A stretch of 64,000 nt of DNA from Blepharisma japonicum (Eukaryota > Ciliophora > Heterotrichea > Heterotrichida > Blepharismidae): the NCBI GenBank assembly GCA_949751835.1, contig CATKHK010000020.1:124001-188000 (forward strand), given 5' to 3'. How positions within the stretch are numbered: the stretch's first letter is position 1; each line of letters begins with the position of its first letter. Below are positions 3,001-39,938 of this stretch, piece by piece. The position numbers and the translations under genes are program-made. The notes under the pieces were generated by a model. The model had not been told where the DNA came from, did not search any database, and saw only the letters and a list, made by a program, of their open reading frames with translations.

Positions 3001-6000
3001 GTTTGTGGTTTACCAAAAGCTTAAGAAAAGAGCCCATAAATTTAGAATACTCTGATGATTTTTTATATCTGTTTTCAACAACTCTAAAAACTGTATTTGC
3101 AAACCCTTCTGTACATATCAGTAAAGTTCCTTCTCTTTGTATTTCTGGTGCTTGATAAGAAAGATTTAAGAGAATTTCCCATTTTCCATTGCTCTTTGCA
3201 ATTAATTTGCTAAATAATACCCAAAATTCAAGAATGTCTAGAGTATCAATAGAAGTATGTTCCTTTAATTCAATTTCAGTAAGTAAATTATATAGTTTTT
3301 CTGCTTTTATTGAATATTCCAAAACATCAAATTCTTGGTTATTGAATAAATGAGGTTGCATATTACCTATCAGCATTTTATAGATTGAGTTTAATGCAAT
3401 TTTCCAAATTTGTTCGTCTTCATCTTGATCATTCTCAAATGAGTTAATATTTTCTAATATATTTTCCATAGTGGTAGTCACTCCCTTAGTTAACTCTGGT
3501 AGAACATCAATTGCATGGCATAATAAGACTCCAAGCTCTTCTATTTTCATGAATGAAATTAATTTTTCTTCAAATAATTCATCATCATAGAAAATTATAT
3601 TAAGCAAGATTAAAATCATATTTTTATGCTCCAAGCTCAATAAATTTTCCTTAAGATAAATCGAGACGAGATCTTTGAAATACAGATCTTGGAGCTGGAA
3701 GTGTTCTCCATTGAAGTCTATACTTTCTTTATATATAGATAATTTATTATATTCTTCAGTAAATTTCTCAAAGGAAGTTTGAATAGGGTTTTTCTTCACT
3801 TCAGAAATTTTATATAAGTTAAAAGCAGCCATAACAGCTTTATAGTCCATTCTTGAAAATGGAAAATAAAGCTCATATTCGTATTTTAGCAGATTTCCTT
3901 GATTTAATCTTTGAAGTCCAATATTATTATCAATTCTCGTACTATTATTAAAAATGTCAAGCCAGATCTGTTTTCTAAAATTGTCAAATTCAGTGTAATC
4001 ACCCTTAAAAGGTTGAACGTAGCTTAAAAGAGCACTCTTCTCCTCAAGGACATAAATAATCAACTGTAGAGCACTTTCTATTTCCATTCCGAGAATCTCC
4101 GAAATAGCCTCATGAAGGTTATCAGAGTCATCAATAATCTTAGAGTTTAAAAAGGCCTCTTCTTTCCAATCTTTCTTTATATTTACTGTTTCCAAATATT
4201 TCCATATTTTTTCCTTAAAACAGCTAGCAATTTCTTGATCATTTCCAATTGTCTTAATTACATTATTAAGATAGCTGCTAAATTTATCTTCATTTTCTGC
4301 AGTGATCTCAATTTTAAATGAAAGCACACATTTCTCTGCTAATAGTTCTATTTTCTTCTCAAAATTAAATATATTTTCAGTGAGAATCAATGATTTTGTA
4401 TTTTTTGATATTATTTCATCTGTAACTTCAAATGAATCAGGATGTAAACCATCAAACATTTTCATTTTCCATGATTCAAATAGCATAATATTTGAGCTGC
4501 ATTTTATATTTCTCCTTATATGAATCAAAATACAGAATTTCTTTTTTGATAAAGAATTTTCTGAATTTAGCTTATCAATCAAAAATTTCACAAGAGATAG
4601 ATGGTTGCACTCTTCTCCAAAATCAACCTCTAAAATAAATACCTTTTGGTCCTTATTTTGGTAAAATGCATTTAATTCTTTTGTAAGATCTTGCTTTGAG
4701 TTGAAGCTTATCATCTCCTTTATCACAATTTTTTTATCATCGTTTGTATTGAAAATATTTCCTGAAATTCTTTTGTCATAAGTAAAAGCAAGCAATTTAT
4801 CAAAGTCGCTTTCATCTTCTATCATTGATTTAATAGTATCTTGGAAGTTAATACTATGTAGCTCTTTCCAGGTATTTTTTATATTTTCTTTAAGGTATGG
4901 ATCGATTGAGATTAATTCCAGTAATATTAAAATATCAGAAGGGGCAATCTCCAACAGAATGTTTATGCATTTATCTAAAGTTTCCTTCTTTTTCCCTTGG
5001 CTATTGAAAAGTATAAGTAATGCCAAGGTTTCTCTGTTGTAAATTGGAAACAGATGATTTTTGGTAAAACTTACTATTTCTTGTTCATCAATAATAAAAA
5101 ATGAATTAATCCAATCTTCAAGCTTTTCTAATAAATTTGTTTGCTTGCTATCGAGAAGTGTGTCAATTGATAAATAATGTTTTTCAAACCTATTCAGGAA
5201 AGGAGCATCTGCCTTCTCAACATCATCTGGACTTATCAATGTAATCGCATGGAATTTTGGATGCACATAGCATCTAGGGTTAAAATTAGCCCCCAATGAA
5301 ATTTTGCAATACTTTCGCTCATAGCTCTCTGCTCCTTGTATTGCATTCACATTCAAACTCTGACCGTTGCCGACCAGAGTTCCTTGTATCGCAAAGCTCT
5401 GATTAAATAAATCATAAAGCGAACTATAAATATGGTTCATGTCTTTCAAAATGATGGATATTCCTAGTTCCATATAAATTATAATATCATTTAAGCACTC
5501 AAAGCCATAATTATCTTGGTTTATATCATTAGCAAGGTTGCTGCCTATAATAATCCTCCTATCATTTTGCTGGTCTAAATATTTATCCAAAATAAAAGTG
5601 GCTATATCCGGTTTACCAATGAGCATCAAATATCTTGCATTAGGATCATCTAAATTATCCTTGATTAAATCAAGAGTTCTTGTATTTATTTCTGGCAAAT
5701 TTATCTTGTAGTAATCATTAAATAAAGTACACATAATAGATGTACCGTAGCGTGTGCCTCCGAAGTTTCTTTCAATAGCAGTTTTCACATATTTGAGAAT
5801 ATCTTCACTTGCGCTTGGACTGTGTTTTGCAAATTTTTCTGATACATTTTTAATCAAATGATAAAAGTCCCTTAAGCCATAAAAATTCGCATTTATTGTT
5901 TCTTGGATTTGCTGCTTTAGTCCCATATATGACTTGGCAAGACTTGTGATTACAGGCACATAAATTTCATTATCAGTATATGAATGATAAATGCTTATCG

Positions 6001-32875: not shown

Positions 32876-34777
32876 TTATCTCAAGCTTAATTCATCAACC
32901 TTAATTTGCCCCATCGTATAGAAATATTTTAGATCCCTCAAAAGCTCATCATTGCTTTTGTTCCTCATTTCTTGTAAAAGTCATCTTCTTTCAGTAGTTT
33001 TGACAATAAACCTTATCATATCTGCACCTGTTAACTTGCAAACATAAATTAAATGGCTGCAAGCTATCCCATATCTCATTATTTTGTCACATGTGCAATA
33101 GCTATTTTCTCAGTCAACTTGGTAATTTTTTATATTTTTTGGAGATTTTTGATCTTCGACTACTAAAATTTCTCCATCACCATCACTATCGAAACTGCAA
33201 AACTCAGTATCTCTTATTGAGCTTAAAATATGTAAAATGCAGTAAGATGTGTATATATTTTGGATGCCATTTATATCTTTCAGTAAACTGCTTATAATAT
33301 TTTCAGAACTCTTTATTGATAAATTTTTGACGCATAAATCTTCTTTATTTGATTCCGAAACTTCTTCAAGATAAGAAAAAATTTGAAAATCTTTATTTCT
33401 CTTGATTAGTTTTGTTAGCTTTCTTAGCAATTGTTCAATGCTGTTTAACCTTTTTTTAGAATCTAAACCAGCTGTGAAATGGTTTTTTACTGAAAATTTA
33501 ACCCAGGATTCTAAGTCTAGCATTAAGCTGGAAATTTCATGGTTTTTTTCTAATTCCGGATAATCATTTAATAGAGAGGAATATCTTTGTATCATTTCAT
33601 TGTAATTTTCAGACTGATATATAGATACAAATTGGTCCTTTATATTGCTTCACTCACGTATTAGTATTAATTTTAATCTTTTTTCAATATGATGATAGCT
33701 GATAATAATATTTGATTCTGGGAAAATCTCCAACAAAGCTTCATTTTGTATATGATTTGAATCAGTCAAAATGGTTTTTGGGTCACAGAGTCCTTGTTCT
33801 CTAAAGCAATTAAATACTCACTCAAAATTTTCTTTAGCTTCTATTTTTACCAGAGCCATTGCTATCAAATTATTAATTCCATTAGAATCCACAGTAAAAA
33901 ATGTCATACAACAATTATAGAATGGATGTATTTGAAATGAACTTTCTATCAGGATCACATCTCCCAGTTTATTCCAGATTTCTACTTTTCTAGCAGTAGT
34001 AACAAATAATTTATTTTCACCTGGATCCTTAACTGGTATAATGTCCTGCTCCCTCAAATTATAATACAAAATATCATCTATGTCAGATGACGCATGCTGA
34101 GAATGTCCTTGGTATTTACTTTGTAAAAAATATCTAAGCTTGCTTTCATTAATAATAGCATTAGGATATTTTTGGCTTAAAATTTTATGGACCTGTTTGA
34201 ACGTCACGCCAGTTGAAAACAGTTGAACAGCAACTTCTTTTAATGGTTTTGGCAAATAAGAACATTGAGCTATGCTTTCTACATGCTCATTAGAAATTTT
34301 TTTATGGTTATGGTATGGGTAAATTTCTCCGCAGCAATATTCTATACTATCAAGGTTAACCTTAGTCACAAATCATTTCATTGAAAACCTGCAAGGGGTT
34401 TCTGGGGTAATTTTAGGAAATTTGTTCATCTGACGGATACGTGAAAAATAGCATGCCCATTCAGTTCGTCTTTTATTGGAGCGTTGGCAGCGGATAATGG
34501 TTTTATCATTTTGTAAGAATTCTGTGATAAGGTCACATTTGAATTCTTCACGATTTTTCTTTTTAATTGTAGAACCTTCAGAGTATAGGCTAGAAATGTA
34601 GCCGTCACTAAAATCTTCTTCAGCGGGCGAAGCCTGGCTTGCAAAAGAAGGTCTCTTTGTAAGTATATTAAAATGGTTATATGGCTCATCGAAAGAGGAT
34701 TTGAGATTATAATTTGAATATGTGGGGTCGTGAGAAATGTGAAATCTTTGTGTTGGTGTATTTGCATAATCGAGCAT
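32876..34777 (-). CDS. domesticated MULE-type transposase (FAR1/FHY3-like layout)
   Basis: 633 aa, uninterrupted once five TGA codons (34373, 33818, 33650, 33110, 32981) are read as Trp. Seen: an N-terminal Cys/His region like the FAR1/FLYWCH DNA-binding fold; a MULE transposase core at about 270-345 (VILIESSF, then LTDSNHIQNEALLEIFPE, then YHHIEKRL); and a SWIM zinc finger near residue 560 (CTCDKIMRYGIACSHL, pattern CxCx8-10CxH). The first catalytic Asp of the core appears replaced by Glu-Ser (IESSF for the usual D-x-T/S), while the second (TDSN) is kept. The stop lies 18 bp from the next gene's stop, leaving no room for a terminal inverted repeat there. This points to a host gene, perhaps a transcription regulator. 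Confidence 0.85.
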
Positions 34778-35145: not shown

Positions 35146-35496
35146 ATGGGAAATAAACATTCTGGAAGAGGTCAGCTTTCAGAGCGTTGCAGAGCACTAG
35201 CAGAAGAAATATTCAAAGAAATTGACATAGATGGGAGCTTAACTATAGATATGGAGGAAACAGCAAAGTGGTGGGATAAGAACTTTGCAATCGTCAATTC
35301 CAGAGCAATGTTTGAAAACGTTGACCGTGATCGTAATGGGACAATTGAGTTCGATGAATGAATAGACTTTTGGACAATGGTTAAGCATCAAGGTTACAGC
35401 GATGATGAGATATATGAAGAGCTGACTAACTTGAAAAATAGAGGATCATGGGTGCAATTTATTGGAACTCAAGTTCATGCTAAAGCAAAGGATTAA
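35146..35496 (+). CDS. myristoylatable two-EF-hand calcium-binding protein
   Basis: 116 aa with a TGA (Trp) at 35359 inside the second EF-hand's exit helix (FDEWIDFW). The N-terminus MGNKHSGRG is a good N-myristoylation site. Two canonical EF loops are visible: DIDGSLTIDMEE and DRDRNGTIEFDE, with calcium-ligand residues at positions 1, 3, 5, 7, 9 and 12. The short C-terminus ends VHAKAKD. Small myristoylated EF-hand proteins usually act as membrane-reversible calcium sensors; the partner here is unknown. Confidence 0.85.
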
Positions 35497-36045: not shown

Positions 36046-37686
36046 TTACTCTAGGCTCTTCAAGCAGCTATATAGAAATTACTCCTCGCAAAGCTTTTGC
36101 CCATCGCAGCGTCCTTGACATTTTTTATGGATATTATGTCCACAATTTCCGATAACTATATTAATTTCATCAAGACTAGATAAAAATTACTCTGATTCGC
36201 ATGCCACACAAATTTCCCCTTTACTTTTCTCCAAATCTTTATCTTTTACCTTTTGGAAGAAAGCACTTGTCACTTCTTCTCCAATGTTTTGTCTATTTAA
36301 AACACTAGCCATCCTTGCTGATGTTTTTTCGGTTATAGAATCTTCGTTATCTTTAGTCACGTTACAGTCTTCTATTATTGGAATCTCTAAAATCTTCTTG
36401 CCCAATTTCGATTTTTCCAATTTATGCTGTCCTGGAAAAACTTGATGCTCAATTTTTCCAAACTTTTTCGAATATATTACACAATAAAAAACTGCCGCAA
36501 AAAATTCGCAAAATAAACTCACAATACTCAAAATTGGCCCATCTTCGGGGCAAAATGAAATATCGTCATCACTTGCTTTAACTCTACAATTTGTTCTATA
36601 TGATACCTCAGATAAATTAAACCAGCTAACTATTCCAATAAGATTAAATAAAACACATAAGCTCGGCCAAACATAATTCAATTCAGAAGCCCCAAATTGT
36701 TTTTTCAAGACAAGATGGAGAAGATGCTCAAGCCATAAAATTAAAAATAGCAAAGAAAAGGTGATCATTCAGCAATAAATGTAGCCTGCTTTAGACAGTT
36801 TATCAAATGCGGTGCATTCACGTTGAGTTATGGAGAGATCTGATTTACTAGCACAGGATGGGCCACTAATGCAATTATAATCTAGGTTGTGGATTGAGAT
36901 ACTGCTTTTACGATATGTGCTCATGCCTATAATGGTGCCGGTCATTGTTTTGGGGGACTGGAAACTTATCCAGTCCCAGCCAAGCGCTAGGCCTGTAAAT
37001 AGAGCACTTAGGAGAATGGCAACTGCTACTTTACCATTCATTAAGATATAGCCATTTTCTAGCCCTTTAAGTACTTTTTCTTTATCTTCTTCTTTATTTC
37101 GGAAAATTATAGCTAAAATTACAAATCCGCACCCAATTACACTTAAAATGAGCGAGGAAAATAGGTAATTTGGTCCATCACTATTACAAATGTTCTCGTT
37201 ATTGTCACAATTTGAGCTAATTTTTGATTGGCTAATTTCAATATAACTTAAAAATCCAGCAAATTTCGATGAAATAAGTACCCCTATTAGTGTATACAAA
37301 ATCCACAATTTTCCATAGCCCTTTCTAAAAAGCATATAAAAAAGTCTCTCAAGAATTAGGATAGTAAATAAGCCTGCTATAACTTCGCTAGAAATAACAC
37401 TTGAGCGAGCTCTCATTAGTTTTCTACCAATTGAACAAAGTTCAGATGACGAATCTTCCTTGCAAGAAATAGCAGCTAAGCAGTTAGGGCTAGTATTTTT
37501 ATATTTCACAGGGCAATCATCGCAATCGAACATCCCATAATTGAACGTCTCCTCATTATAAGAGAAAGAATTTCAGGTAGGAGTTAAAATGCTGGCAAAA
37601 GAAATAAACAGACTTGTCGTCAAAATAAGCGAAGACGAGACTACTGCAGAAAAGAAACCAATAGAATGGCTGAATATAAGCTTCAT
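36046..37686 (-). CDS. multi-span membrane RING-finger protein with an internally duplicated four-helix module
   Basis: 536 aa from ATG 37684-37686. TGA Trp codons occur at 37573 and 36769; two 15-nt introns lie at 36176-36190 and 36068-36082, and the final exon is 22 nt. About eight hydrophobic helices are seen. Residues ~10-235 and ~240-425 repeat the same plan: helix, W-x-SF, a Cys-rich lumenal loop, three helices, with a Cys...C-x-x-DGP loop before the last helix (NICNSDGPNYLFSS versus SFCPEDGPILSIVS). The C-terminus, revealed only after intron removal, is a RING-like finger: ICVACESDL...NCGHNIHKKC...LCEDC (C2-H2-C4 spacing). Inferred: a membrane-anchored E3 ubiquitin ligase. I do not recognise the membrane family. 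Confidence 0.82.
36068..36190 (-). other. two 15-nt introns bracketing the RING-encoding exon
   Basis: On the minus strand GTAATTTTTATCTAG (36176-36190) and GTAATTTCTATATAG (36068-36082). Without splicing the first, translation would end in TAA right after CESE and the RING finger would be lost. With both removed the exons sum to 537 codons in frame. Confidence 0.85.
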
Positions 37687-37985: not shown

Positions 37986-38927
37986 ATGGATCCAGATCAG
38001 ATAAGTGCTAAATTCCAAGAAAATCTTGAAGCACCCAACACATCTCCAGCTCATGCCTCAATTAGGACACTCACCCAAGTAATTGAAGCAAGCACAGAGC
38101 AAACAGTTCAAGGTCTTTCGAAAGAGCTTGAAAGAGCAGCATCCATTCTATATAATGTTGCAGAAAGCCAAAGCAAAATATTAGGAAGAACTCCCTTATC
38201 AGTTATAGCTGGCTGTGACATGTTTAGGCATCATACCTCTAAAACACTTGCAGCATTAGATTACGACGATTTTCCTAAGCTTAAAGCAAAACTGGTAGAG
38301 CGTGGATATTACTTATCAGAAACTAGGCCAGCGTTTTTGAAGAGAATAGCTGATATGGCAATTTGCTGCTTTAAAGACAACCAAAGCGTGCTGGTCCATG
38401 GATACTCAAATGTAGTAAATCATATTTTGGTGAAAGCTGCTGAGCAATTTCATATAACAGTGATAGTGACTGAGTGTAGGCCGTTTTGTGAAGGCTATAT
38501 TATGTGTGAAGAATTAAAAAAACATAACATCCAATTTACGCTGATAATGGACAACGCTGTAGCCAGTGTTATGGATGGTATTGACATGGTTATGGTAGGT
38601 GCTGAAGCTGTTGTTGAAAGTGGAGGAGTTATCAATAGAATTGGCACTTATGGTATCGGTTTAATTGCAAAGTTTTTCAAAAAACCTTTATATGTATGCA
38701 CAGAGAGTTTGAAATTTGTAAGAATGTTCCCACTAAGCCAGCGAGATTTGCCACAATGCACAAAATGTTCCTGTGCACCCATACAAGCCTGCAAAGGCGT
38801 AGAAAATATCGATATAACTGTATGTGATTTGACGCCTCCTGAGCTAATATCACTAATGTTTACAGACTTAGGAATTCTAACACCTTCAGCTATTTCTGAC
38901 GAGTTAATAATGCTTTATAACCAATAA
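37986..38927 (+). CDS. EIF2B1: translation initiation factor eIF2B subunit alpha
   Basis: 313 aa, close to the human length. The eIF2B-alpha/beta/delta family core is clear: SVLVHGYSNVV, VIVTECRPFCEGY, FTLIMDNAVASVM, DMVMVGAEAVVESGGVINRIGTY, KPLYVCTESLKF, and the C-terminal LTPPELISLMFTDLGILTPSA. Known: the alpha subunit helps assemble the decameric eIF2B guanine-nucleotide exchange factor and senses phosphorylated eIF2 in the cytosol. There is no TGA and no intron. A short Cys-rich insert (CTKCSCAPIQAC) before the C-terminal motif is unusual. It converges on the next gene with 15 bp between stops. Confidence 0.95.
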   Translation: MDPDQISAKFQENLEAPNTSPAHASIRTLTQVIEASTEQTVQGLSKELERAASILYNVAESQSKILGRTPLSVIAGCDMFRHHTSKTLAALDYDDFPKLKAKLVERGYYLSETRPAFLKRIADMAICCFKDNQSVLVHGYSNVVNHILVKAAEQFHITVIVTECRPFCEGYIMCEELKKHNIQFTLIMDNAVASVMDGIDMVMVGAEAVVESGGVINRIGTYGIGLIAKFFKKPLYVCTESLKFVRMFPLSQRDLPQCTKCSCAPIQACKGVENIDITVCDLTPPELISLMFTDLGILTPSAISDELIMLYNQ

Positions 38928-38942
38928 TCTAGGCTTATTTTG

Positions 38943-39938
38943 TTAAACACAAGAATTAATTAATTTATTCAGCTTGTTTCTCAGTATAAGCATTTTTTGC
39001 AAAACCGGCTTGATTTTTGGTGGGATATTTGGCTGTAAAATAGTAAGGGCACTTAAAGAAAACAGCAGCTTTGACCTTTTCGCGAGAATTTTAAACCTTC
39101 TTCAGCATTGGTTGTCAGTCCTTAGTTTTACTAATTTAGCGATTTTGCTTCAGCGTTTCCCTAGATAGCAGACTCCTAAAATCAGTCTAATGTCTTCACT
39201 TTCACTTCAGCTTGTAGAATTTACTTCAGGACTTAAAATATTGCAGTATCTTTCTCTACATTGAATATCTGTTCTATGTGGCACATATTCAGCGATCAAA
39301 TTTCAGTTGCCTCCAAATACTTTTACTGCTAAAGCAAGCTTGATGTCTTCTTCTTTGTCCCACTTTCCTCTGTGAATATTTGGGTGAATTGTCTTCATTC
39401 ATCGATGATAGCATTGCGAATTTGTTTTCCCATCAACACAATTAGAAATTTCTCGTCAATTATTTATTCCATATTTTGCGACAGCATGATGAAGCTGGAA
39501 ATCTTCATCTTTAGATCAGGATAAAGTCCGAATAAAAACAGGTGATTTTCTATAATGCTTTTCGTACATACGGAAACAATCTATTTTTGTCTTGTTTAAT
39601 GATATTGAGATCTCTGCCCAGTTTGGACCTTGCTTATCGTAGGAAGATTTTAATGCTGAAAGCTCGGATGCCGAAAATTCTTTTGTGGAAGCCAGTGATG
39701 GAGTTTTAAATTTCTTTAAAAATTGCTGAAGTTTGAAACAAGGGTGAATTGGGATTTTTGGCTTTGGTGGCTTTTTTGGTCTCTCTGGGGTATTTTTTTT
39801 GTTTTTTTGGCGTTTTATAATAGATATTGTTTTAAGCTTTTTGTCTAGCTCAATTAAGTAGTTTCTTAAATAATTCTGATAAGCCCTGGAAGCTCGTATA
39901 GACTGAAAAATATTTCTTAGAATTTCCAATTCATTCAT
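38943..39938 (-). CDS. SNAPC4-like: multi-repeat Myb protein, SNAPC4 (SNAP190)-like
   Basis: 331 aa with seven TGA codons read as Trp, five of them on the spaced Trp residues that define Myb repeats. After a basic N-terminal ~90 residues come four repeats at about 92-300: GPNWAEISISL; WSKDEDFQLHHAV...NNWREISNCV...CYHRW; WDKEEDIKLALAV...GNWNLIAEYV; WSESEDIRLILGV...KRWSKIAKLV...QCWRRF. Human SNAPC4 has 4.5 Myb repeats and recognises the proximal sequence element of snRNA promoters; the repeat number and divergent first repeat fit. c-Myb-like proteins are the alternative. Nuclear. Confidence 0.88.

Follow-up and report, generated by a model that had tools for sequence, protein, structure and literature searches.

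A Blepharisma gene that joins two predicted claudin-fold modules to a C-terminal RING-type domain

What is a membrane protein whose two halves resemble each other, and why should it end in a RING? The question is raised by a gene in a 64,000-nucleotide (nt) stretch of the Blepharisma japonicum genome, here called the window (contig 20, positions 124001–188000, of the 45.2-Mb, 224-contig assembly in which all own-genome searches were made). The gene lies on the minus strand, from an ATG at window position 37686 to a stop codon at 36048–36046, and forms a single frame of 536 residues once two introns of 15 nt, GTAATTTTTATCTAG (36190–36176) and GTAATTTCTATATAG (36082–36068), are removed. The product comprises two four-helix modules followed by a C-terminal RING. 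A sequence-only reading of the locus had proposed that the membrane part was built by internal duplication, with a Cys-loop layout unseen in RING ligases, and that the RING becomes visible only after intron removal. In this study, these proposals were followed up by self-alignment, structure prediction and comparison with paralogs.

Internal duplication and the predicted fold of the module

The membrane part arose by internal duplication of a four-helix module, as the sequence-only reading had held. Residues 1–210 and 211–440 align locally with a BLOSUM62 score of 121, compared with a best score of 89 in 3 × 1000 shuffles (maxima of 59 for full shuffles, 89 for shuffles within 11 residues and 73 for shuffles keeping the hydrophobic pattern). 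Aligned by hhalign as single sequences, residues 1–235 and 240–425 match with a probability of 90.7% (E = 1.2e-6), and the family alignments of the A and B modules do so with 99.91% (E = 4.3e-34). The repeat between the halves is also found by blastp (25% over 163 columns, E = 7.7e-10); a 100% blastp match was set aside as trivial because both pieces contained residues 206–235. A profile built from nine single-module paralogs, excluding the window gene, recognizes two copies of the module in the window protein, at 60.8 and 99.4 bits. The Cys-rich loops and both of the motifs noticed earlier recur in the two halves, W-x-S-F at W38 and W239 and C-x-x-D-G-P at C167 and C379.

Module A (residues 8–198; 37093–37665) contains four transmembrane (TM) helices, a Cys-rich first outer loop and a second outer loop with C160 and C167 that ends in C-NS-DGP. 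Module B (residues 209–412; 36451–37062), supported by structure models and structure matches, likewise has four TM helices, with a four-stranded sheet in the first outer loop and C367 and C379 in the second, which ends in C-PE-DGP. The cytosolic linker that follows (residues 413–492; 36211–36450) is mostly of low confidence in the model, and its residues 416–486 form the least conserved of four regions in comparison with the paralog L010.

The module is predicted to adopt a claudin fold. Its model has a pLDDT (predicted local distance difference test) of 90, and the best 50 matches listed in each of two structure searches are claudin-fold proteins, as judged from titles, chain ranges and what is known of these proteins. 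The first outer loop is predicted to be a β-sheet, with four strands in module B and two assigned in module A. Among the 63 family modules compared, a Trp starts the first outer loop directly after TM1 in all 63; the Cys pair of this loop occupies columns conserved in 61 and 62 modules (both Cys in 61), that of the second outer loop is present in 54 and 54 (both in 54), and a Gly stands four residues past the latter pair in 62. The claudin signature of the first outer loop is W-GLW-C-C; the same modules have its W in 63, G in 45, L in 49 and the two Cys in 61 and 62, with no conserved second Trp and with a different Cys spacing. The Pfam models PMP22_Claudin and Claudin_2 have no match in the own genome at E ≤ 1 and do not appear when 11 of the family's proteins are scanned with a limit of E ≤ 10, and nothing in Pfam exceeds its cut-off for the window protein, its halves or ten further family proteins. 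Outside the RING models the lowest E value belongs to DUF485 on L018 (E = 0.0032; 17.9 bits against a required 28), which was taken as chance, and a profile search of PDB sequences returned four sequences, each a nuclear-receptor zinc finger with an E value no better than 1.4, which were rejected as an artefact of the Cys pattern.

Models and the charge bias over the 63 modules agree on four TM helices per module with both module ends inside, the positive-inside bias assigning the TM2–TM3 loops and the C-terminal ends of the modules to the cytosol. Given eight helices, this bias places the Cys loops outside and the RING and both protein ends in the cytosol. The Cys pairs of the outer loops would probably form disulphides, and the protein may reside at the cell surface.

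Splicing and conservation of the RING

The RING-H2-type core, C493 to C531 (36064–36210), spans both introns. Exon 1 (36191–37686), supported by paralog alignment, runs from the ATG through both modules and the linker into the beginning of the RING; exon 2 (36083–36175) encodes its middle, and exon 3 (36046–36067) the last RING cysteine, LKSLE and the stop. The RING-H2 pattern reads C-x2-C-x(9-39)-C-x(1-3)-H-x(2-3)-H-x2-C-x(4-48)-C-x2-C. It is matched by the window gene, through C493, C496, C510, H512, H515, C518, C528 and C531, and by the paralogs L010 and L012; when the 47 residues tested are shuffled 20,000 times, no match arises. The eight ligands and their exact spacings are constant in the three paralogs, among which RING identity falls to 34%.

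Left unspliced, the frame runs as far as E499 and then meets an in-frame TAA within intron 1. This allows a reading of the gene in which translation stops there and the protein lacks the RING, whose similarity would be that of a remnant. GTA..TAG pairs spaced 10–30 nt apart in the window show no excess at 15 or 16 nt (21 and 19 pairs; 10 to 24 at other lengths), so that intron length by itself is no proof and the case for splicing is carried by the paralogs. L010, 59% identical over exon 1, has a first intron of 16 nt at the same place and a second of 15 nt, and the readings of the two genes agree only if both are spliced. The RING of L012 lacks both introns, with the same spacing and the same 39-residue span from first to last Cys as in the window gene. 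Between the window gene and L010 synonymous sites are near saturation (pS 0.707 overall), and non-synonymous change (pN) is lowest in the RING, at 0.152, compared with 0.205 in module A, 0.229 in module B and 0.320 in the linker. Since the readings of L010 and L012 agree and pN is lowest in the RING at near-saturated pS, the removal of both introns, and with it the presence of the RING in the protein, is well supported, in line with the sequence-only reading. Codons 38 and 306 of the window gene are TGA, read as Trp, and in-frame TGA also occurs in most of the 34 own-genome matches. In Blepharisma stoltei, TGA is reported to be read as Trp and most introns to be 15 or 16 bp long (PMC9942806), an intron length that also speaks against a remnant. 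We regard truncation at E499 as very improbable.

A gene family in which few members carry a RING

The two-module layout is not particular to the RING protein. Own-genome searches with three members, after which 27 further stretches were retrieved, brought the family to 53 genes or more, 35 with one module and 18 with two; these counts are lower bounds, L064 turned out to be L028 again, and all 26 of the newly fetched genes have one module. No two of 70 modules exceed 86% identity, which excludes near-identical copies. A C-x-H-x2-[HC]-x2-C pattern that belongs to the gene was found in three of the 18 two-module genes (the window gene, listed as L009, L010 and L012). The 35 single-module genes gave no RING match, nine having been searched with flanks and 26 in open frames only, with a longer RING pattern; as unspliced frames were searched, a RING interrupted by an intron within the motif would escape. 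A fourth match, of CGH type and downstream of L026, was not counted: it falls past the stop of L026, within another open frame that starts from an ATG of its own. In the product of that frame (oriented positions 3026–3556), a RING of the form CPIC...CGHNFCLTC...CPIC stands at the N-terminus and hydrophobic stretches come after it, so that it looks like a more conventional membrane RING protein.

A tree was built from the 70 modules, including 17 B rows; L028B was left out, its gene model being broken by introns. Single modules fall on one side of a branch (97/90) and A modules on one side of another (86/66), and the B modules require two changes. The tree is best explained by a single ancient internal duplication that preceded the divergence of the 18 genes; the split of the B modules and the unrooted tree leave room for more than one. 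The window gene and L010–L014 constitute one subfamily in their A and B parts alike (100/100). Because a RING was found in three of the 18 two-module genes and in no single-module gene, it was either gained after the duplication or lost from part of the subfamily.

Several further features of the family were observed. Four of the subfamily's six genes (L010, L011, L013 and L014) encode a short cytosolic tail motif resembling R-P-N-T-Q-E-S/T; the last three of them have no RING that we could find, and in the window gene the motif is degenerate. A 15-nt intron lies at the start of TM3 of module B in seven of the 18 two-module genes (L015, L016, L017, L019, L020, L025 and L029); L018, L021, L023 and L026 are continuous there, indicating gain or loss of a tiny intron. 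Six single-module genes with the predicted fold (L034, L035 and L040–L043) form a tandem array on contig 85 (136683–148439), and three more lie on contig 72 and four on contig 18. Viral and prokaryote genome contigs scanned with exon 1 of the window gene contained no relative; these collections are non-ciliate and silent on ciliate specificity.

The window gene is flanked by an eIF2B-type gene (37986–38924, plus strand; IF-2B, E = 1.7e-56) and by a gene for a small EF-hand protein with an in-frame TGA (35146–35493, plus strand; E = 4.3e-10). An open frame at 33818–34372 (minus strand) shows very slight similarity to the ZSWIM1-3 RNaseH-like domain (E = 0.046) and is possibly a transposase relic, and one at 39519–39938 (minus strand) has a weak, below-cut-off Myb-like domain (E = 0.003). 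The genome has a large RING repertoire, with at least 150 zf-RING_2 matches (150 of 498 candidates scored), several of them clustered on contigs 4, 11, 20, 22 and 85.

Possible function and comparison with known systems

Claudin-fold proteins mostly act by binding other membrane proteins, and the titles of the structure matches name such partners, AMPA receptors for TARPs and GABA-A receptors for GARLH4. Because one chain here contains both kinds of part, the architecture is best read as a membrane unit that selects targets and is coupled to a RING in the cytosol. On this reading, two claudin-fold modules fused to each other give the protein eight membrane helices, and the chain finishes, at its very C-terminus, in the cytosolic RING. 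A partner or client, presumably a membrane protein, would be bound by the helices of both modules together with their Cys-paired outer loops, in the manner of the accessory proteins TARPs, LHFPL and MOSMO; the RING, on its flexible tail, would bind zinc and recruit a ubiquitin-loaded ubiquitin-conjugating enzyme (E2), marking the client for removal. One chain would then do the work of MOSMO, MEGF8 and MGRN1 together. We give this membrane-anchored, probable RING ubiquitin ligase (E3), with the claudin-fold part selecting targets, an even chance.

Ligase activity is the weak link, because several residues that we take to be usual E2 contacts are, by eye, absent from the window RING and its Pfam RING scores fall under their cut-offs (at best 22.4 bits versus 27.9, for zf-RING_5; E = 1.2e-4 for the isolated domain). 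Both points weigh against the ligase and suit a protein of the same architecture in which the RING is a zinc-binding scaffold devoid of ligase activity. The claudin-fold protein would then serve in adhesion, in the cortex or as an accessory of a channel, docked by its RING to a cytosolic partner; the 15 of 18 two-module genes in which no RING of their own was found fit this too. Such a scaffold is a possibility to be taken seriously, if a tentative one, as it has to contend with the ligands and spacings kept among paralogs of strongly diverged RINGs and with the low pN of this domain. A membrane part of many helices, followed by a C-terminal RING in the cytosol, would also befit a polytopic quality-control ligase of the endoplasmic reticulum (ER), of the Hrd1, gp78, TMEM129 or Asi1/3 kind, whose helices recognize misfolded membrane proteins for ubiquitination by the RING; the sequence-only reading had named ER quality control as one possibility. 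The predicted claudin fold with Cys-paired outer loops, known to us mainly from surface proteins, and the small share of two-module genes in which a RING was found make this improbable.

Building on the target-selecting ligase, a bolder proposal may be ventured, which we consider speculative and rather doubtful: a heterotrich one-chain ubiquitin ligase for receptor control. The claudin-fold family would have grown to more than 50 genes; in one lineage the fusion of two folds would have produced a surface sensor with eight helices, and some of its members would have acquired a RING, letting a ligand or partner bound outside the cell govern ubiquitination within it. If true, heterotrich ciliates would have reached the claudin-like/RING coupling of an animal complex independently.

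The family shares with the claudin-fold superfamily (claudins, PMP22/EMP/MP20, TARPs, GSG1L, LHFPL, of which TMHS is LHFPL5, and MOSMO) the four helices, the inside termini, the large β-sheet first outer loop, the Trp after TM1 and the Cys pair of the first loop. It differs in that its first-loop Cys pair comes later and with other spacing than in the claudin signature, in its second-outer-loop Cys pair and in having no Pfam claudin match, and the window protein in having two modules per chain. CLAMP has to our knowledge neither a RING nor a tandem module. This protein, named claudin-like, is reported from another alveolate lineage (PMC9815656, PMC10047546).

Polytopic membrane RING ligases (Hrd1, gp78, TMEM129, Asi1/3 and Tul1) combine a multi-helix membrane part with a RING in the cytosol, which in a number of them is C-terminal, and we know of no claudin fold in their membrane parts; ligases built around claudin-like surface proteins are, in our view, the closer likeness. 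The literature consulted, mostly titles and the openings of abstracts with few subscription journals, yielded no tandem-claudin or claudin–RING protein, and we know of no other tandem-claudin RING protein. What the sequence-only reading described as a layout new among RING ligases is, at the level of the module, a familiar fold by prediction. Among the closest known systems is the MOSMO–MEGF8–MGRN1 (MMM) complex: MOSMO is reported to be claudin-like and closest to the TMHS group, and to act together with MEGF8 and the RING ligase MGRN1 in lowering a surface receptor (PMC5792066, PMC8513608, PMC13161197). A claudin-like four-helix protein functionally tied to a RING ligase would be common to both systems (PMC8513608, PMC13161197); the MMM complex, however, consists of three proteins with MGRN1 docked by MEGF8, whereas the window protein is one chain with two claudin folds and no MEGF8-like part, and the likeness seen is one of architecture.

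These comparisons identify a large ciliate family with a predicted claudin fold that the Pfam claudin models miss, indicate that such folds can be fused in tandem and provide a natural fusion of the fold to a RING. This fusion would support a view of claudin-like proteins as target-selecting parts of membrane ubiquitin ligases, one open to testing in a single-celled organism that can be cultured. The window protein is a new arrangement of known parts, in which a single chain may do work that animals divide between claudin-like proteins and ubiquitin-ligase proteins.
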